34,250 nucleotides of DNA, taken from assembly GCA_018053845.1 (NCBI GenBank), contig JAGPKU010000022.1:1-34250 (forward strand). The letters are read 5' to 3'. Position 1 is the first letter of the stretch. The number at the start of each line of letters is the position of its first letter. This document shows positions 7,574 through 16,400 of the stretch, piece by piece. The notes under the pieces are model-generated. The model made no database searches. It worked only from the letters and a program-made list of their open reading frames with translations, and was not told the origin of the DNA. Origin of the DNA: Syntrophobacterales bacterium. GTDB lineage: Bacteria; Desulfobacterota; Syntrophia; Syntrophales; UBA2192. The position numbers and the translations under genes are program-made.

Positions 7574-9586
7574 ATGTTCTTCCTCGATGACATCGTCCTC
7601 ATCATCGGGCTTTCGGCCGTGGTGCTCTACCTGTGCCACCGCCTCGAGCTGCCCGCCATCGTGGGCTACCTGCTCACGGGGCTCCTGACGGGCCCCTACG
7701 GGTTCGGTCTCGTCGGCAACCTCGAGGCCGTCACGATGCTGGCCGAGATCGGGGTCGTGGCGCTGCTCTTCACGATCGGCCTGGAGTTCTCCTTCCGCAA
7801 CCTCGTGCAGCTGCGCCGCACGGCCCTCCTGGGAGGCACCCTGCAGGTGCTGCTGACGCTGCTCGTCGCCGCCGCGATCTCCCACGGCCTCGGGAGGCCC
7901 GCGGGGCAGTCCATCTTCATCGGCTTCCTGACGGCCCTGAGCAGCACGGCCATCGTCATGAAGCTCCTGCAGGACCGCGCCGAGGTGGAAACCCCGCACG
8001 GCGCCGGCGCGCTGGGCATCCTCATCTACCAGGATCTCATCGTCGTCCCCATGATGCTGCTGCTCCCCTTCCTCGGGGGAGGGGTCCAGGGGTCGACCGA
8101 CGACCTGCTTTTCCTGCTGGGCAAGGAGGTCGGGGTCATCCTGGCCCTCATCGTTGCGGCAAAGTGGCTGGTCCCCTGGACCCTGCGCGAGGTGACCCGG
8201 ACGGGCAGCCGCGAGCTCTTCCTGCTGACGATCGTCATGATCGGCCTGGCCGTGGCCTGGCTCACCCACGTCGCGGGGCTCTCGCTGGCCGTCGGGGCCT
8301 TCCTGGCGGGCCTCGTCATCTCCGAGTCCGAGTACAGCCACCAGGCCATGGGCAACGTCATCCCCTTCCGCGACATCTTCGCGAGCTTTTTCTTCGTCTC
8401 CATCGGGATGCTTCTGGATCTCCGCTTCCTCGCGGAGCACCCGGTGTACCTCTTCCTGCTGGCCGCCGGGATCATGCTCGTCAAGAGTCTCGCCGCAGCG
8501 GCGGCCGTCCTGTTCGTGGGTCTGCCGATCCGCGTGGCCGCGCTGGCCGGCCTCTGCCTCGGGCAGATCGGCGAGTTTTCCTTCATCCTGGCCGAGGCGG
8601 GCCGGAAGTACGGCCTGCTCACGCAGGCGATCAACCAGGAATTCCTGGCCTATTCCGTCCTGACGATGATGGCGACCCCCTTTCTGTTCCGTATCTCCCG
8701 CCCGGTGGCCGATGCGCTGGCCCGCCTGCCGCTGCCCGGGCGCCTCAGGCGCGGCAGCATCCCGACGGCGGGCGCGAAGCGGTCCCACGAGAAGGATCAC
8801 TTGATCATCGTCGGCTTCGGCGTCTACGGGCAGAACATCGCCAGGGCCGCCCGCGAGGCGAAGATCCCCTATGCCGTCCTGGACATGAACGCCGATCTCG
8901 TCCGCGAGCAGCGGCAGAAGGACGAGCCGATCTACTACGGCGACGCGACCCATGAGGCCATCCTGCAGCACGTCAACATCCGCCGGGCCCGGATCCTCGT
9001 GGTCGTCATCAGCGACGCGGCGGCCACCCGACGGATCACCGACCTCGCGCGCCGGCTCAATCCCAGGCTCTACATCGTCGTGCGGACGCGGTTCATCCAG
9101 GAGATCGGCCCCCTCATGGAGACGGGGGCCAACGAGGTCGTCTCCGAGGAGTTCGAGACCTCCGTGGAGATCTTCAGCAGGATCCTGTCGCGGTACCTCC
9201 TGCCCGAGGAGGAGATCCACCGTTTCGTGGAGGAGATCCGTTCGGACGGCTACGCCATGTTCCGCAACCTCTCGAAGCACGCCACGTCGTGCCCGCACAT
9301 CGGGGCCTGCCTGCCGGACATGGACCTTCGCTCGGTCCGCGTACACGGGGAATCGGCCCTGACGGGAAAAACCATCGCCGGGGCGGAACTGGGGAAGACC
9401 TTCGGGGTCACCGTCCTGGCCGTCAGGCGGGAGGGGGAGATCCTTTCCATCCCGCCGGCGGATCTGGCCCTCGAGCCGGAGGATATCCTCTTCATCGTCG
9501 GCCCGCCCGCAAAAATCGCGGAACTCGAGGCCGTGCTGCGCGTGCCAGCCGGGAGGGGAAACCCGCCCGGCGCGGAAACGGGTTGA
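7574..9586 (+). CDS. CPA2-family cation:proton antiporter with RCK domains (antiporter 2)
   Basis: A 670-residue KefB/KefC-like antiporter. Residues 1 to about 385 form the membrane exchanger domain (LPAIVGYLLTGLLTGPYGFG, LLFTIGLEFSFRNL, LAVGAFLAGLVISESEYSHQ). An RCK-N nucleotide-binding fold follows with GFGVYG at about 414-419, then one RCK-C domain near 590-660. The linker before RCK-C carries a Cys pair (C573 and C579, motif CPHIGAC) that antiporter 3 keeps at the same residue numbers. The ATG at 7574 gives an N-terminus matching antiporter 3. The likely role is potassium or sodium export under nucleotide, pH or redox control; the physiological signal is unknown. Confidence 0.9.
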   Translation: MFFLDDIVLIIGLSAVVLYLCHRLELPAIVGYLLTGLLTGPYGFGLVGNLEAVTMLAEIGVVALLFTIGLEFSFRNLVQLRRTALLGGTLQVLLTLLVAAAISHGLGRPAGQSIFIGFLTALSSTAIVMKLLQDRAEVETPHGAGALGILIYQDLIVVPMMLLLPFLGGGVQGSTDDLLFLLGKEVGVILALIVAAKWLVPWTLREVTRTGSRELFLLTIVMIGLAVAWLTHVAGLSLAVGAFLAGLVISESEYSHQAMGNVIPFRDIFASFFFVSIGMLLDLRFLAEHPVYLFLLAAGIMLVKSLAAAAAVLFVGLPIRVAALAGLCLGQIGEFSFILAEAGRKYGLLTQAINQEFLAYSVLTMMATPFLFRISRPVADALARLPLPGRLRRGSIPTAGAKRSHEKDHLIIVGFGVYGQNIARAAREAKIPYAVLDMNADLVREQRQKDEPIYYGDATHEAILQHVNIRRARILVVVISDAAATRRITDLARRLNPRLYIVVRTRFIQEIGPLMETGANEVVSEEFETSVEIFSRILSRYLLPEEEIHRFVEEIRSDGYAMFRNLSKHATSCPHIGACLPDMDLRSVRVHGESALTGKTIAGAELGKTFGVTVLAVRREGEILSIPPADLALEPEDILFIVGPPAKIAELEAVLRVPAGRGNPPGAETG

Positions 9587-9743
9587 AGTCCCTCGGAAAA
9601 GCCCCTGCACTGGGATCGGGTCCGGGCAAAACCCCGGAGGCAGCGCGAGGATGGTCGGGCCGCCATCCTTCGGCAGGACGGAGGCGGCTTTTTCATGCGC
9701 CACGCCGCCGGCCGACGGCGGTGCCCGGGAAAGGACAAGCGGC

Positions 9744-11726
9744 ATGCCGTTTCTCGGCGACATTCTCATCATCATCGGCCTGTCCGCCGTCGTGCTCTAT
9801 CTCTGTCACCGGGCGGGCATCCCCGTCATCGTCGGCTACCTGCTCACGGGCATCGTGGCCGGCCCCTATGGGTTCGGCCTCGTCCGGCAGATCGAGGCCG
9901 TCCGGGTCCTCGCCGAACTGGGCATCGTGGCCCTGCTGTTCACCATCGGCCTGGAGTTCTCGTTCCGCAACCTCCTGCAGCTGCGCCGCACGGCCCTCTT
10001 GGGAGGCACCCTCCAGGTCCTACTGACCGTCCTGACCGCAGCCGCCGCGGCCGAAGTCCTCGGCCGGCCGCTCGGGGAGGCGATCCTCATCGGCTTCCTG
10101 ACCGCCCTGAGCAGTACCGCCATCGTCATGAAGCTCCTGCAGGACCGCGCCGAGATCGACACCCCCCAGGGTGCAAGCACCCTGGGCATCCTCATCTTCC
10201 AGGATCTCGCCGTCGTGCCCATGATGCTCATCCTCCCGCTGCTGGGGGGCGCGGCCCGGGAGAGCCCGGAATCCATCCTGCGGCTCGTGGCCGGGGAGCT
10301 CGGGGTCGTCGTCTTCATCGTCATCGCCGCGAAGTGGGTCGTCCCCTGGGCCCTGCTCAAGGTGACCCAGACCCGCAGCCGGGAACTGTTCCTGCTGGCC
10401 GTCGTCATGATCGGCCTCGCCGTGGCCTGGCTGACCCAGGCGGCGGGGCTCTCGCTCGCCCTGGGGGCGTTCATGGCCGGGCTCGTCATCTCCGAGTCGG
10501 AGTACAGTCACCAGGCCCTCGGCAGCATCCTGCCCTTCCGGGATGTCTTCGCCGGCTTCTTCTTCGTCTCCATCGGCATGCTCCTCGATCTGAACCACCT
10601 TGCCGCGCACCCCGCCGAGACCGCGTGGATGACCTCCGCGGTCCTCCTCGTCAAGGCCGCCGTCGCGACGGCGGCCGCCCTGATCGTCGGTCTTCCCCTC
10701 CGCACCGCCCTGCTCGTCGGGCTCGCCCTGTGCCAGATCGGCGAGTTTTCCTTCATCCTGGCCGAGGCGGGCAGCCGCTACGCCGTCTTCACGGGAAACC
10801 GCTACCAGGAGTTCCTCGCCGTCTCGGTGCTCACCATTATGGCCACGCCCTTCATCTTCCGCGTCTCGCCGCGCCTCGTCGAGGCCCTCTTGCGCCTGCC
10901 CGTCCCCCAACGTCTGAAGAGGGGGAAATTCCACATGCGGGACTCGAGAAGAGTGCGCGCGACGGATCACCTCGTCATCGTCGGCTTCGGCTTCAACGGT
11001 CGCAACCTGGCGCGGGCGGCAAAGGCCATGGGAATCCCCTATGCCGTCGTCGAGATGAACCCCGACACGGTGCGCGATCAGCGGGAGAAGGGCGAGCCCA
11101 TCCACTGGGGCGACGCGACGCAGGAGGCCGTCCTGCAGCACGTCAACATCTGCCGTGCCCGTTCGATCGCCGTCGTGATCAACGACGCGGCGGCCACGCG
11201 CCGGATCACGGAACTTTCCCGGCGGCTCAACCCCAGGGCCTACATCATCGTCCGGACGCGGTTCATCCCGGAGATCCAGCCGCTCAAGGAACTCGGCGCC
11301 AACGAGGTGATTCCGGAAGAGTTCGAGACCTCCGTGGAGATCTTCAGCCGCCTGATGGCCACCTACCTGGTGCCGAAGGAGGAGATCGAGCGGTTCGCCG
11401 AGGAGATCCGCGCGGGCGGCTACGAGATGCTGCGCAGCCTGTCGCGGGAGGCGACGGCGTGCCCGAGCATCGAAACCTGCCTGCCCGATGTGGAGATCCG
11501 GTCCCTCCGCGTGCAGGACCGCTCCCCGGCCGTCGGGAAAACCCTGGCCCAGACGCAGATGCGCAAGAAGTACGGCGTCACCCTGCTGGCTGTCCGCAGG
11601 GGCGCCGAGGTCACGACGATCCCGGATCCCGACATCCGCTTCGAGGCACAGGACCTGCTCTTCGTCGTCGGCCAGCCCGCGCGGATCGCGCAGGTGGAAG
11701 AGCTCTTCCGGGCGAAAAGCCCGTGA
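9744..11726 (+). CDS. CPA2-family cation:proton antiporter with RCK domains (antiporter 3)
   Basis: A 660-residue close paralogue of antiporter 2, matching it through the exchanger domain (IPVIVGYLLTGIVAGPYGFG, LALGAFMAGLVISESEYSHQ), RCK-N (GFGFNG) and RCK-C. The Cys pair is CPSIETC at residues 573 and 579, the same numbering as in antiporter 2. The frame opens at 9651, but the ATG at 9744 aligns exactly with the start of antiporter 2 and has a GGAAAGGA site. No convincing promoter was found in the 157-bp gap, so it may be read through from antiporter 2. This is a tandem duplication. Confidence 0.9.
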   Translation: MPFLGDILIIIGLSAVVLYLCHRAGIPVIVGYLLTGIVAGPYGFGLVRQIEAVRVLAELGIVALLFTIGLEFSFRNLLQLRRTALLGGTLQVLLTVLTAAAAAEVLGRPLGEAILIGFLTALSSTAIVMKLLQDRAEIDTPQGASTLGILIFQDLAVVPMMLILPLLGGAARESPESILRLVAGELGVVVFIVIAAKWVVPWALLKVTQTRSRELFLLAVVMIGLAVAWLTQAAGLSLALGAFMAGLVISESEYSHQALGSILPFRDVFAGFFFVSIGMLLDLNHLAAHPAETAWMTSAVLLVKAAVATAAALIVGLPLRTALLVGLALCQIGEFSFILAEAGSRYAVFTGNRYQEFLAVSVLTIMATPFIFRVSPRLVEALLRLPVPQRLKRGKFHMRDSRRVRATDHLVIVGFGFNGRNLARAAKAMGIPYAVVEMNPDTVRDQREKGEPIHWGDATQEAVLQHVNICRARSIAVVINDAAATRRITELSRRLNPRAYIIVRTRFIPEIQPLKELGANEVIPEEFETSVEIFSRLMATYLVPKEEIERFAEEIRAGGYEMLRSLSREATACPSIETCLPDVEIRSLRVQDRSPAVGKTLAQTQMRKKYGVTLLAVRRGAEVTTIPDPDIRFEAQDLLFVVGQPARIAQVEELFRAKSP

Positions 11727-11854: not shown

Positions 11855-13912
11855 CTAATCGAGCCGCCGGAGCACGAGGGCCGTGCGCGTGGGGAGGTAG
11901 AGGCTCAACCGATGGCACGCGGCGGGCCCCTGTCCTTCGGGCTGCGTGAAGTGGATCTGGTCCGGCTCGAGGCGCCCGTGGCCGCCGTAGACGCCGGCAT
12001 CGGTGTCCAAGACGAGCCGGTAGCGGCCCGGCGGGGCGTCGATCCGGTAGCCGACGTGGGACAGGGAGGGATGGAAATTGAAGGCAAGCAGGTGCCCCGC
12101 CCGCTCGAAGGCGAGGACCTTCGTTTCGTTGTGCTCGTGCAGCAGGCGGGGCACGCCCGACCCCAGGAGGTTCGCCCGCCGCGCGAGCGCGATCATGTCG
12201 GCGTCGAAGCGGGCGAGCTGCCGGTATCGCAGGGTCTCGTCGTCCGCGAGGCTCCACTGGCGACGGGCGTACTTGTAGGACCAGCCGTTGCCGGCCCTCG
12301 GGAAGTCGATCCACTCGGGGTGCCCGAACTCGTTGCCCATGAAGTTCAGGTACCCGTGGCCCGCCGTGGCGAGCGTGACGAGGCGGATCATCTTGTGCAG
12401 CGCCACGCCCCGGTCGACGCGGAGGTTTTGCCGGAAGACGCTCATGTCCGTGTACATGTCGGCGTCGATCATCCGGAAGATGAGGGTCTTGTCCCCCACG
12501 AGGGCCTGGTCGTGCGACTCGCAGTAGCTGATCGTCTTCTCGTCCCGCCGGCGGTTGTTGAGCTCGTGCCACAGGTGCCCCAGGGGCCACGCCTCGTCGG
12601 GGCATTCCTTCAGCAGCCGGATCCAGGTGTCGGGCACGCCCATGGCGAAGCGGAAATCGAACCCCGTCCCCCCCTGCGCCGCGGGGACGGCCAGCCCCGG
12701 CATGCCGCTGACGTCCTCGGCGATCGTGACGGCGTCGGGCCGCACGTCGTGGATGACCCGGTTCGCCAGGGCCAGGTAGGCCAGGGCATCCTCGTCGACG
12801 CCCGCGTCGAAGTAGTCGCCGTAGGACAGAAAGGCCTTCCCCAGGCCGTGGTGCCGGTAGAGCATGCTCGTCACGCCGTCGAAGCGGAACCCGTCGAAGC
12901 GGAACTCGTCGAGCCAGTAGCGGCAGTTGGAGAGCAGGAAATGCAGGACCTGGGGCTTGCCGTAGTCGAAACAGCGTGAACCCCACGCCTCGTGCCGGCC
13001 CCGCGCGCCGCGGTGAAAGTACTGGTGCTCCGTGCCGTCGAACCGGCCGAGCCCTTCCACCTCGTTGGACGCCGCGTGCGAGTGGATGAGGTCCATGACG
13101 ACGCAGAGCCCCGCCTCGTGGGCCGCGTCGATGAGCGCCTTGAGGTCCTCGGGCGTGCCGAACCGCGACGAGGCGGCGAAGAAGCTGCTCACCTGGTAGC
13201 CGAAGGACCCGTAGTAGGGGTGCTCCTGGATCGCCATGAGCTGCAGGACGTCGTACCCCGCCCGCACGACTCGGGGCAGGACCTTCTCCGTGAACTCCCG
13301 GTAGGTGCCGATCCGTTCCTCCTCCTGGGCCATACCCACGTGGGCCTCGTAGACGAAGGGCGTCTGCACGGCGCAGCAAAACCCCTCGCGGCGCCATCGG
13401 TACGAGGAGGGCGGGTCCCAGACCTGGGCGTTGAAGATCAGCGTCTGCGGGTCCTGCACGACGCGCCGGGCCCAGGCGGGGATGCGATCGCCCTGCCCGC
13501 CGATCCAGTGAACCCGCAGGCGGTACAGATCACTGTGGGCCATGGCCGAGGCGGGAAGGCGGATCTCCCAGACGCCTTCGGCCCCGTCGAGCCTCTCCAG
13601 GGCGAACCGGTGCGTCTCCCGCCAGTCGGTCATCCGCCCCACGAGGCTGATGCGCGTGGCGTTCGGGGCCCACTCGCGCAGGACCCACTCGCCGCCCCGG
13701 CGGTGCAGGCCGAAATACTCGTGCCCGCTGGCGAAATCGGCGAGGCGCATCCGGCCCTCCGTGAGCCGCGCCTCCAGCTCGGCCGCGCGGCGCAGGCGCC
13801 TCTCGAGCGCCTCGCGCCACGGCCCCAGCAGCGGGTCCGCGGCAACGAGCCTCTCCGCAAGCTTCTCGATGCGGCCGGGGGTCGAGTGTCCCGGTTCCGG
13901 TTTTCCCGCCAT
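11855..13912 (-). CDS. glgB: 1,4-alpha-glucan branching enzyme, eukaryote-like GH13_8 type
   Basis: Forms alpha-1,6 branches in glycogen. With the chosen ATG (13912) the protein has 685 residues: an N-terminal CBM48/isoamylase-type domain, then a GH13 barrel with DGFRFDGVTSM (nucleophile D345), AEDVSGMP (acid/base E399) and ESHDQALVGDK (D468), and a C-terminal beta domain. HPYYGSFGYQVSSFF, VTSMLYRHHG and WIDFPRAGNGWSYKYARRQW are signatures of the eukaryotic GH13_8 branch rather than the usual bacterial GH13_9 GlgB. An ATG at 13972 is also in frame, but it overlaps a TATGAT -10 box; the ATG at 13912 has a GAAGGT site, so it is preferred. Divergent from the MarR gene. Confidence 0.9.
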   Translation of the reverse strand: MAGKPEPGHSTPGRIEKLAERLVAADPLLGPWREALERRLRRAAELEARLTEGRMRLADFASGHEYFGLHRRGGEWVLREWAPNATRISLVGRMTDWRETHRFALERLDGAEGVWEIRLPASAMAHSDLYRLRVHWIGGQGDRIPAWARRVVQDPQTLIFNAQVWDPPSSYRWRREGFCCAVQTPFVYEAHVGMAQEEERIGTYREFTEKVLPRVVRAGYDVLQLMAIQEHPYYGSFGYQVSSFFAASSRFGTPEDLKALIDAAHEAGLCVVMDLIHSHAASNEVEGLGRFDGTEHQYFHRGARGRHEAWGSRCFDYGKPQVLHFLLSNCRYWLDEFRFDGFRFDGVTSMLYRHHGLGKAFLSYGDYFDAGVDEDALAYLALANRVIHDVRPDAVTIAEDVSGMPGLAVPAAQGGTGFDFRFAMGVPDTWIRLLKECPDEAWPLGHLWHELNNRRRDEKTISYCESHDQALVGDKTLIFRMIDADMYTDMSVFRQNLRVDRGVALHKMIRLVTLATAGHGYLNFMGNEFGHPEWIDFPRAGNGWSYKYARRQWSLADDETLRYRQLARFDADMIALARRANLLGSGVPRLLHEHNETKVLAFERAGHLLAFNFHPSLSHVGYRIDAPPGRYRLVLDTDAGVYGGHGRLEPDQIHFTQPEGQGPAACHRLSLYLPTRTALVLRRLD

Positions 13913-13967
13913 CGCCTCTGCACCTTCGTGTTGCCGATGCGGCCGGCTGAAGATCCGGCCTGTCTGC

Positions 13968-13995
13968 ATCATACAGAAAACGCCCTTTTGTGCAA
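13968..13995 (-). promoter_or_regulatory. Promoter of glgB
   Basis: On the minus strand TTGCAC (13990-13995) and TATGAT (13968-13973) are 16 bp apart; the -10 matches five of six consensus bases. Transcription would start near 13961, inside the upstream in-frame extension of glgB, which argues for translation from the ATG at 13912. Confidence 0.6.
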
Positions 13996-14027: not shown

Positions 14028-14056
14028 TTGACAGATGCCCCGATTATTTGTATACG
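14028..14056 (+). promoter_or_regulatory. Promoter of the MarR-family gene
   Basis: A perfect TTGACA (14028-14033) and TATACG (14051-14056) are 17 bp apart, about 36 bp before the ATG at 14092. An imperfect palindrome covers the -10. Confidence 0.7.
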
Positions 14057-14059
14057 AAT
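14046..14059. promoter_or_regulatory. Operator candidate over the marR -10 box
   Basis: ATTTGTATACGAAT is a 14-bp inverted repeat with one mismatched pair, centred on GTATAC and covering the -10. MarR proteins usually bind such palindromes and repress their own genes, so autoregulation is the simple reading. Confidence 0.5.
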
Positions 14060-14091: not shown

Positions 14092-14616
14092 ATGCCAGCG
14101 GACAGCCAACTGACCCTGGAGGTCAACGACTCCCTTCGGAAGCTCATGCAACTTGTCCAGACCCGCTCGAAGAAGATCCGCAAGGAAACGGGCATCACGG
14201 GACCCCAACTGCTCGCGATGAAGACCCTGGCCGACTCGCCCGGCCTCAGCATCTCGGAACTCGCACGCCGCATCTACCTGCACCCGGCCACGGTGGTGGG
14301 CATCGTCGACCGGCTCGAGGGACAGGGCCTCGTCGAGCGCTCCCCGTCGACCAAGGACCGCAGGCAGGTGCAGGTCAAGCTGACCCGGGGCGGCAAGGCC
14401 GCCCTCCGAAAGACCCCCCCGGCCGCCCGGGACTCCGTGCTCGCGGGGCTCGAGACCCTGCCGGACAAGAAGCTCAAGCGCCTCGCCGTCAGCCTCGCGC
14501 TGATCGTCCGGGTCCTGGAAGCCCACGCGAAAGGCCCCGCTCCCAAGCGCCGCCGCGGCAGGCCGCGCAAGGAGGAATCGGTGCCGAAAAAGCGGCGCGG
14601 CAGGAAACCGGCGTAA
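14092..14616 (+). CDS. MarR-family transcriptional regulator with AT-hook-like tail
   Basis: A 174-residue protein with a winged helix-turn-helix of the MarR type (about residues 35-100: GPQLLAMKTLADSPGLSISE, HPATVVGIVDRLEGQGLVER, wing KDRRQVQVKLT). After the C-terminal dimer helices it has a basic tail with a canonical AT-hook core (RRRGRPRK, residues 153-160) and a degenerate second copy (KKRRGRKPA, 166-174), unusual for MarR proteins. The ATG at 14092 has an AAAGGAGAG site; an upstream in-frame ATG at 14035 lies within the promoter and was rejected. It probably controls itself, and possibly the divergent glgB and the downstream TreZ-like gene. The ligand is unknown. Confidence 0.88.
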   Translation: MPADSQLTLEVNDSLRKLMQLVQTRSKKIRKETGITGPQLLAMKTLADSPGLSISELARRIYLHPATVVGIVDRLEGQGLVERSPSTKDRRQVQVKLTRGGKAALRKTPPAARDSVLAGLETLPDKKLKRLAVSLALIVRVLEAHAKGPAPKRRRGRPRKEESVPKKRRGRKPA

Positions 14617-14710: not shown

Positions 14711-16315
14711 GTGGATAGAAAACCGACGCTGGGTGCCGCACCCCGGGGAAAGGGGAAGACCTCTTTCCTGGTCTGGGCGCCGGCTGCAGAGAGAGTCGAC
14801 CTGCGCATTCTGCCCCCCAAGGGCCGTCGCGTCACGATGCAGAGGCGCGACGGAGGGTATCACGGCATCGAGGTCGAAGGGATCCGGCCGGGTGACCTGT
14901 ACGTGTACCGCCTTGACGGGCTCATCGAGCGGCCCGACCCCGCCTCGCGATCCCAGCCCCTCGGCCCCTGCGGGCCCTCCGCAGTCGTCGATGACGTCGC
15001 GGCCCGGGAAAAGAGCCCCTGGCGCGGTCTCGAGCTGCGGGACACCATCTTCGCCGAACCCGTCGGAAGCGACCTTTCCTTCGACGCGATCCGTTCCCGG
15101 ATTGACCAGTTGAGCGCCCTCGGGTTCAACGCCCTCCGGGTCCCGTTGGCGGCCGGCAGGGGTTTCCCGTTCTCCGTGCCCCCATCACAGGGAGGGCCGG
15201 ATGGTCTGAAACGGCTTGTCGAAGCCTGCCACCGGCGCGGTCTTGCCGTGTTGCTCGCCCTGGACCTGTTTGAAACCGGAATCGAAGGGGAGCCCCTCGT
15301 GTTCTTCGGGCCCTACTTCACCGGCCGCGATCGGTGCTTCAATCTCGGCGGCCCCCTCAGCGACGAGGTCCGGCGATATTTCACGGAATGCGTCCTTTCC
15401 CGGTTCCGGGAGACCGGCGTCGACGCTCTCGACATCGGCCCGGTGGACGGCCTCGCGGACCCTTCCCCCCTGACGCTCCTGGAAGAACTGTCCTGCGCTG
15501 TCCACGACGAGGCGAAACGCATCGGCCGGCCCCTGCACCTCGTTGCCCGAAGCGGGCAAAACGACCCGCGGTTGATCCGACGTCGGGAAGACGGCGGGAT
15601 CGGGCTTGACGCGGTCTGGAACCCCGATTTCGAAGAGGCGCTGCACACCCTGCTGCGAGGTGCCGCCGCGGGACCCGGCAGCGACTTCGGCAGGCTCGAA
15701 CACGTCCGGAAGGCGTTTTTGGAAGGGTTTGTCTGCTCCGGCGGCTACTCTCCGACCCGACTGCGCAGGCACGGCCGCTCGTCGAGGGCCCTGCCCGGGG
15801 AGCGCTTCCTGGTCCGCGCACGCCCGGTGGCCGCGGGGGAGCGGCGTCACGGCCCCGACGGGGCAGACGTCTTTCTTTGCGCCTGCCTGCTGCTGTCCCC
15901 CTTCCTGCCGCTTCTGGCCGCGGATGGGGGTGGCCCTGCCGGCGGCGCCTGCTGCGCCGAACTGATCCGGCTGCGGAAGGAGTTGCGCGCCATGGGGCTT
16001 CTGGACAAGCAGTGCATGGGGGCCCTCGGATACGAGAGGCAGGAGGTCCTGCTCGTGCGGCACTGGAAGGACGATGCGGACCTCATCATCCTCTTCCACT
16101 TCGGCCGCCGGCCGGTCAGGATTTCCGTTCCCATCCCGGCAGGCACATGGGCCCTGCGTTTCGATTCGGCGGACAGACGGTGGGACGGGCCTGGAAGCGC
16201 TCTCCCCGGACAACTGCAGGGCGACGGCGGCGATGTCTCGCTCCCCCTCGCCCCCCTGTCCTGCGCGGTGTACCTGAGGCAGCGCGGAGAACGGACAGCG
16301 GCGAAGAACCGATGA
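14711..16315 (+). CDS. Maltooligosyltrehalose trehalohydrolase-like protein lacking catalytic residues
   Basis: A 534-residue homologue of TreZ (GH13). Residues 18 to about 95 form a CBM48-like domain (FLVWAPAAERVDLRI, GDLYVYRLDG). Residues about 110-410 follow a TreZ barrel, with LVARSGQNDPRLIRRREDGG, GLDAVWNPDFEEALHTLLRG, EGFVCSGGYSP and LLLSPFLPLL matching conserved TreZ blocks; a C-terminal beta domain follows. The nucleophile motif DGLRLDAVHA reads DALDIGPVDG (Asp to Gly243), the acid/base Glu of AESDxND reads Arg280, and NHDQ reads PVAA. Hydrolase activity is therefore unlikely; a carbohydrate-binding or regulatory role is inferred. The start is GTG at 14711 with a GAGG site. The frame is intact. 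Confidence 0.8.
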   Translation: MDRKPTLGAAPRGKGKTSFLVWAPAAERVDLRILPPKGRRVTMQRRDGGYHGIEVEGIRPGDLYVYRLDGLIERPDPASRSQPLGPCGPSAVVDDVAAREKSPWRGLELRDTIFAEPVGSDLSFDAIRSRIDQLSALGFNALRVPLAAGRGFPFSVPPSQGGPDGLKRLVEACHRRGLAVLLALDLFETGIEGEPLVFFGPYFTGRDRCFNLGGPLSDEVRRYFTECVLSRFRETGVDALDIGPVDGLADPSPLTLLEELSCAVHDEAKRIGRPLHLVARSGQNDPRLIRRREDGGIGLDAVWNPDFEEALHTLLRGAAAGPGSDFGRLEHVRKAFLEGFVCSGGYSPTRLRRHGRSSRALPGERFLVRARPVAAGERRHGPDGADVFLCACLLLSPFLPLLAADGGGPAGGACCAELIRLRKELRAMGLLDKQCMGALGYERQEVLLVRHWKDDADLIILFHFGRRPVRISVPIPAGTWALRFDSADRRWDGPGSALPGQLQGDGGDVSLPLAPLSCAVYLRQRGERTAAKNR

Positions 16316-16400
16316 AGCCATGAAGTTCGGAAAAACCGGAAGCCTTCAGCCGGTCATCAGCCCATCCAAGCTTCTCAACGTCCCAACTTCTCGAGTTCTC
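16312..16400. repeat. Inverted pair of degenerate 8-bp tandem repeats
   Basis: The left arm reads ATGAAGCC, ATGAAGTT, CGGAAAAA, CCGGAAGCC from 16312. The right arm (16366-16400), read on the minus strand, gives GAGAACTC, GAGAAGTT, GGGACGTT, GAGAAGCTT. The period is about 8 bp and the arms are inverted, but pairing between them is weak. The layout resembles the clearer elements at 19812-19915 and 28363-28502. It lies between the convergent TreZ-like and lspA genes. Confidence 0.4.
16331..16354 (-). terminator. Possible terminator of the ileS-lspA unit
   Basis: On the minus strand ACCGG and CCGGT enclose a 10-nt loop and are followed by a run of five T, about 80 nt beyond the lspA stop. The stem is short, so termination is plausible but not certain. 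Confidence 0.4.

Follow-up and report, generated by a model that had tools for sequence, protein, structure and literature searches.

Can a gene whose protein has lost the catalytic acids of its enzyme family still serve the cell, and if so, how? The question arises at 14711-16315 on the forward strand of the window, the whole 34,250-nucleotide stretch analysed here, which comes from the UBA2192 lineage (Thermodesulfobacteriota, Syntrophia, Syntrophales). An open reading frame of 534 codons begins there at a GTG and contains no internal stop. Its product, which we call psTreZ, matches TIGR02402, the profile of the trehalose-releasing enzyme maltooligosyltrehalose trehalohydrolase (TreZ, GH13), over residues 18-402 (239 bits, E 7e-71) and does not reach the curated cut-off of 538.8 bits. 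Sulfolobus TreZ (3VGE/3VGG) matches it at E 2.6e-50 in a phmmer search against solved structures, and psTreZ is about 80 residues shorter than its relatives. An initial sequence-only reading had described an uninterrupted 534-codon frame encoding a TreZ-like GH13 protein with a CBM48-like start, a description that the frame and the PF02922 and TIGR02402 matches bear out. That reading had also named a structural model, dN/dS, and a search for orthologues with the same substitutions and the same marR/glgB neighbourhood as ways of checking it. A long antisense open reading frame at 15185-16321 is taken to be a shadow of the high-GC frame.

Five further species of the source genus, which consists of uncultured syntrophic Syntrophales bacteria, have orthologues of psTreZ that are 58-72% identical to it and dead at the same sites. 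Counting the window's genome, intact psTreZ is thus present in six of seven congeners; the seventh (G001, 77% complete) has neither psTreZ nor the glgB/marR locus, an absence that is uninformative. A scan of genome contigs with the single psTreZ protein as query returned no match, and the same scan with an alignment as query returned four named orthologues, whose records are MAGs assigned to Syntrophales, Syntrophaceae or Deltaproteobacteria. In-frame TGA codons in G002 and G003, considered as possible interruptions, are the normal stops at the gene end. At the thresholds used, a search of 155 class genomes and 395 phylum genomes revealed psTreZ nowhere outside these six. In the phylum search, catalytic residues were checked for the best loci, including the 28 canonical ones, and weaker matches were judged solely by match extent; matches outside the genus end near profile position 413-420, and psTreZ reaches 533.

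The catalytic residues of Sulfolobus TreZ are D252 (nucleophile), E283 (acid/base) and D377 (PMC3716775). In an alignment to this enzyme, they correspond to Gly243, Arg280 and a stretch reading PVAA in psTreZ, and the beta-4 Arg is Asp241; the alignment agrees with the sequence-only reading on all of these substitutions. Among Thermodesulfobacteriota TreZ proteins, 33/33 (one being the active-type copy in sister species G005) have an intact QNHDQ motif, nucleophile, acid/base, beta-3 His and beta-4 Arg; 6/6 psTreZ have none of these. The losses go beyond those named in the sequence-only reading: they take in this His of the beta-3 NH pair, the His of Ala-Val-His (now Asp246) and the HH pair after WN-D, and two segments are missing altogether, WGYDGV and approximately 70 residues of the beta-7/beta-8 region. 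The trehalose-side subsite is stripped as well. Among its residues in KM1 numbering (W215, A256, Y325, F352 and R353; PMC3716775), the alignment places a gap at W215, G247 at A256, P322 at Y325 and T349 at F352, and R353 (R350 in psTreZ) is the only one kept. With the nucleophile, acid/base and transition-state Asp missing, along with most residues that hold the sugar, hydrolysis of the GH13 type would be impossible. We regard it as near certain that psTreZ is non-hydrolytic and as very probable that it has no TreZ activity.

Of the columns near-invariant in TreZ, 68/168 are lost throughout the six psTreZ proteins, 76 positions are still common to both groups, and 27 are newly invariant. The new positions at beta-strand ends include S155, L186, F187, D241, G243 and D246. 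L186 and F187 are the same in 6/6 psTreZ, followed at position 188 mostly by Glu and once by Gly, and D241, G243 and D246 are invariant in 6/6 species. The acid/base and NHDQ positions vary among the orthologues without pattern. An AlphaFold2 model built from an alignment of 11 sequences (pLDDT 82, pTM 0.85) has TreZ 3VGD as its best solved match (Z 33.4, 2.6 A over 469 residues), with branching enzymes ranking after TreZ. In this predicted structure, the TreZ fold of CBM48, (beta/alpha)8 barrel and C-terminal beta domain is kept and the active site, devoid of its acids, is not.

Table 1 Features of the psTreZ locus, in window coordinates.
Feature	Position	Strand	Remarks
glgB, branching enzyme	11855..13972	-	catalytic motifs FRFDG, AED, SHDQ intact
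Candidate divergent glgB promoter	13968..13995	-	TTGCAC, 16 nt, TATGAT
Candidate marR-psTreZ promoter	14028..14056	+	TTGACA, 17 nt, TATACG; conserved in six genomes
Candidate MarR operator	14046..14059	.	palindrome ATTTGTATACGAAT; overlaps -10 of marR-psTreZ promoter
marR	14092..14616	+	MarR-family regulator; PF01047, E 3e-18; start from orthologue comparison
psTreZ	14711..16315	+	TreZ-derived GH13 pseudoenzyme, 534 aa; start site common to all orthologues, GTG or ATG
CBM48 / isoamylase N-terminal domain	14729..14920	+	residues 7-70; PF02922, E 2.7e-7
Beta-3 motif	15266..15274	+	TreZ Tyr-Asn-His; here Leu186-Phe187-Glu188
Beta-4 catalytic motif	15431..15448	+	TreZ R-L-D-A-V-H; here D241-I-G243-P-V-D246
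Acid/base position (Arg280)	15548..15550	+	R, P or H among orthologues
QNHDQ motif position (transition-state Asp)	15821..15835	+	reads R-P-V-A-A
C-terminal beta domain (DUF3459)	15956..16312	+	PF11941; most constrained part, omega 0.16

The gene is nonetheless under purifying selection, somewhat looser than that on active-type TreZ. Codon models give psTreZ an omega of 0.24 (lnL -7832.4, versus at best -8119.7 for omega 1), in comparison with 0.14-0.17 for sets of active-type TreZ and, among its neighbours, 0.12 for glgB, 0.14 for marR, 0.07 for lspA and 0.05 for ileS. Constraint is unevenly distributed along the protein. The CBM48 part (residues 1-103) is its least constrained large part at 0.32; the first half of the barrel gives 0.25, residues 233-347 give 0.20 and the barrel end 0.30, and the C-domain is lowest. 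GC3 is 0.81, versus 0.90-0.95 in the neighbours. When neutral evolution was simulated at the observed divergences, 0-3 of 2000 frames stayed open per lineage. The sequence-only reading had thought simple decay unlikely, and we reject both decay and sequencing error on the strength of omega and the neutral simulations.

A tree of 39 sequences unites the psTreZ proteins in one clade (support 100/100) on a long stem of 0.82; their sister is the active-type TreZ of G005 (99/94). We infer that psTreZ arose by duplication of the lineage's own TreZ and lost catalysis before the genus radiated, and that TreY, the enzyme that partners TreZ, and TreZ itself would have disappeared afterwards from most of its species. 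Among the six psTreZ genomes (86-100% complete), TreY scores above cut-off in G005 only; the window's genome has no such TreY, nor an active-type TreZ. The G005 copies lie in a cluster of TreY, GH57, TreZ and GT5 genes (L020 259-16469, G005:C144), farther along which stand genes that look GH65-like and beta-phosphoglucomutase/trehalose-phosphatase-like.

All six genomes show the same order wherever contigs reveal it: glgB on the reverse strand, marR and psTreZ on the forward strand, then lspA and ileS, again in reverse. The glgB-marR-psTreZ part is seen in 6/6 genomes; lspA and ileS are seen wherever the contig or fetched stretch reaches (L016 did not show them). A sister genus (G007) has glgB without an adjoining marR or psTreZ. 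The AT-hook MarR gene and nearby branching enzyme noticed in the sequence-only reading are both real, and their association with psTreZ is kept. The MarR protein has the winged-helix domain (PF01047, 65.9 bits versus a cut-off of 24.6) and a conserved AT-hook-like tail, KRRRGRPRKEES.P.KRRGRK. Orthologue conservation places its start at 14092, not at 14035, the first ATG of the frame, which sits within the operator/promoter. The glgB start is probably 13912, the frame opening at 13972 inside its own -10.

The gap between glgB and marR holds two conserved blocks that we read as divergent promoters; both were proposed from conservation, and a consensus promoter scan listed neither. Six genomes each have one copy of the palindrome that overlaps the marR-psTreZ promoter, in G006 with one mismatch, and no copy elsewhere except for an extra one-mismatch site in G003; the palindrome was not found in G007. 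From its position, psTreZ is probably co-transcribed behind marR and presumably controlled by the AT-hook MarR. Side features of the locus include the GlgB itself, which scores well under bacterial GlgB cut-offs (272 versus 577 bits) and carries a motif, DGFRFDGVTSMLY, known from eukaryote-type branching enzymes. Upstream of glgB lie tandem Kef/CPA2-type antiporter genes (7574-9586 and 9651-11726, approximately 65% alike); the G006 orthologue of the first is split into three frames, perhaps by an assembly error.

Several explanations could account for a conserved protein without an active site. We consider it very improbable that psTreZ is a relic that lost its purpose with TreY and is only drifting. 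TreY is indeed absent from 5/6 genomes and psTreZ evolves faster than its neighbours, with lower GC3, but six frames have stayed intact at 22-37% nucleotide divergence, where the neutral simulation predicts 6-10 stops each; omega 1 is rejected by 287 log units, and the promoter block, start and gene order are conserved. Slimmer still is the chance that psTreZ retains GH13 activity through an unusual set of catalytic residues, in the manner of BmaN1 and its relatives. An aberrant triad does not preclude activity in GH13 amylases (PMC5347038), but BmaN1 still has its acid/base Glu as well as an Asp beside the nucleophile position; psTreZ is without the three acids, the beta-3 His, the beta-4 Arg and the NHDQ His in 6/6 species, and the WGYDGV and beta-7/8 segments are missing.

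A more serious candidate, though in our judgement an unlikely one, is neofunctionalisation, in which the pocket has been rebuilt around D241, D246 and Gly243 and the protein is now either a sensor that binds another ligand (a sugar phosphate or a metal) or the catalyst of another reaction. The beta-4 replacements are invariant across six species whose proteins share 58-72% identity, several of the 27 new invariant positions lie at beta-strand ends, and the region holding the beta-4 strand (residues 233-347) is well constrained. The acid/base (R/P/H) and NHDQ positions vary freely, however, the loops that build the pocket are deleted, and we recognised no new conserved set of Asp, Glu and His resembling a known active site. 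Quite improbable, in turn, is a ligand-sensing co-regulator that would bind maltodextrin or a glycogen end and act on the AT-hook MarR, the pair setting marR-psTreZ and glgB expression by glycogen state. The two genes do occur together in six genomes and are both missing beside glgB in the sister genus, and the operator palindrome is essentially confined to this locus. Nevertheless, there is no direct sign of contact between MarR and psTreZ, the maltooligosyltrehalose subsite residues are mostly lost, and a MarR protein is normally its own sensor of small ligands.

We lean towards the reading that psTreZ, taken as a whole, is a selectively maintained, lineage-specific, TreZ-derived pseudoenzyme linked to glycogen. 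Because its active site is lost and selection has kept it beside its own regulator and glgB, psTreZ probably has a non-enzymatic part in glycogen metabolism. The sequence-only reading had proposed a non-catalytic role of this kind: the pseudoenzyme part holds on every check which that reading had named, and the glycogen link holds in part, from the divergent glgB and from glycogen genes elsewhere in the window's genome, which include a glycogen synthase-type GT5, a glucan phosphorylase and GH57 genes. The glycan binding it envisaged was not borne out, given a substrate cleft stripped of subsite residues. As constraint is strongest away from CBM48 (omega 0.32, versus 0.16 in the C-domain), CBM48-based glycan binding is not favoured as the main function. 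Another GH13 protein of approximately 520 residues, seemingly intact, is encoded at L080 1786-3351 (G000:C121), and both the congeners and the sister genus have counterparts of it.

In the mechanism that we propose, psTreZ would have been duplicated from the lineage's own TreZ before the genus diversified, keeping the three-domain fold. It would share with marR a promoter that bears the putative palindromic MarR operator and diverges from glgB, and would be made upon release of MarR. The protein may then bind a glycogen enzyme, with the divergent GlgB as first candidate, or a glucan, through the constrained barrel face and C-domain, and this binding could tune branching or assembly in the way that ISA2 acts on ISA1 in plants. 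That the partner is specifically GlgB or a glucan, as this analogy would have it, we put forward tentatively. Counting against a partner role, GlgB needs no psTreZ in general, as it stands alone in G007, and the faster evolution of psTreZ relative to its neighbours (0.24 versus 0.05-0.14), together with its lower GC3, fits a looser or weaker role. The new invariant acids in the pocket may reflect a new ligand or activity. The most far-reaching version, a glycogen pathway with a dedicated non-catalytic subunit or sensor taken from a trehalose enzyme, its pocket rebuilt and its own MarR switch acting at one site, which would make psTreZ an independent bacterial counterpart of ISA2, is possible but on balance doubtful.

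Among known systems, TreZ (GH13_10; Sulfolobus 1EH9/3VGB, Deinococcus 2BHU) has the closest fold, with full-length homology and the same succession of CBM48, barrel and C-terminal beta domain. Unlike TreZ, psTreZ has lost its catalytic and most subsite residues, mostly has no TreY in the genome and sits beside marR and glgB; as a warning for annotation, TreZ homology here does not mean trehalose synthesis. Catalytic residues are also substituted in another set of bacterial GH13 proteins, the BmaN1-type alpha-amylases of Bacillus, and in one small subgroup of these all three are affected (PMC5347038), but BmaN1 keeps its acid/base, is reported active, belongs to a different subfamily and has no link to a MarR/glgB locus. 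Searches of an open-access library of papers gave no TreZ-derived pseudoenzyme. In the way it may work, psTreZ is best compared with plant ISA2, a GH13 protein of alpha-glucan metabolism whose catalytic residues are long gone and which selection has kept, for reasons that are an open question (PMC12510319). The ancestor of ISA2, in plants and algae, was a debranching enzyme, and ISA2 has a demonstrated partner in ISA1, whereas psTreZ derives from bacterial TreZ and its partner is putative. Since one species has an active-type sister copy, six orthologues are available and the compact locus includes a regulator, psTreZ offers a simple system for the function of dead alpha-glucan enzymes. Eukaryotes provide the best-known non-catalytic GH13 proteins; psTreZ adds one from bacteria whose origin can be traced.
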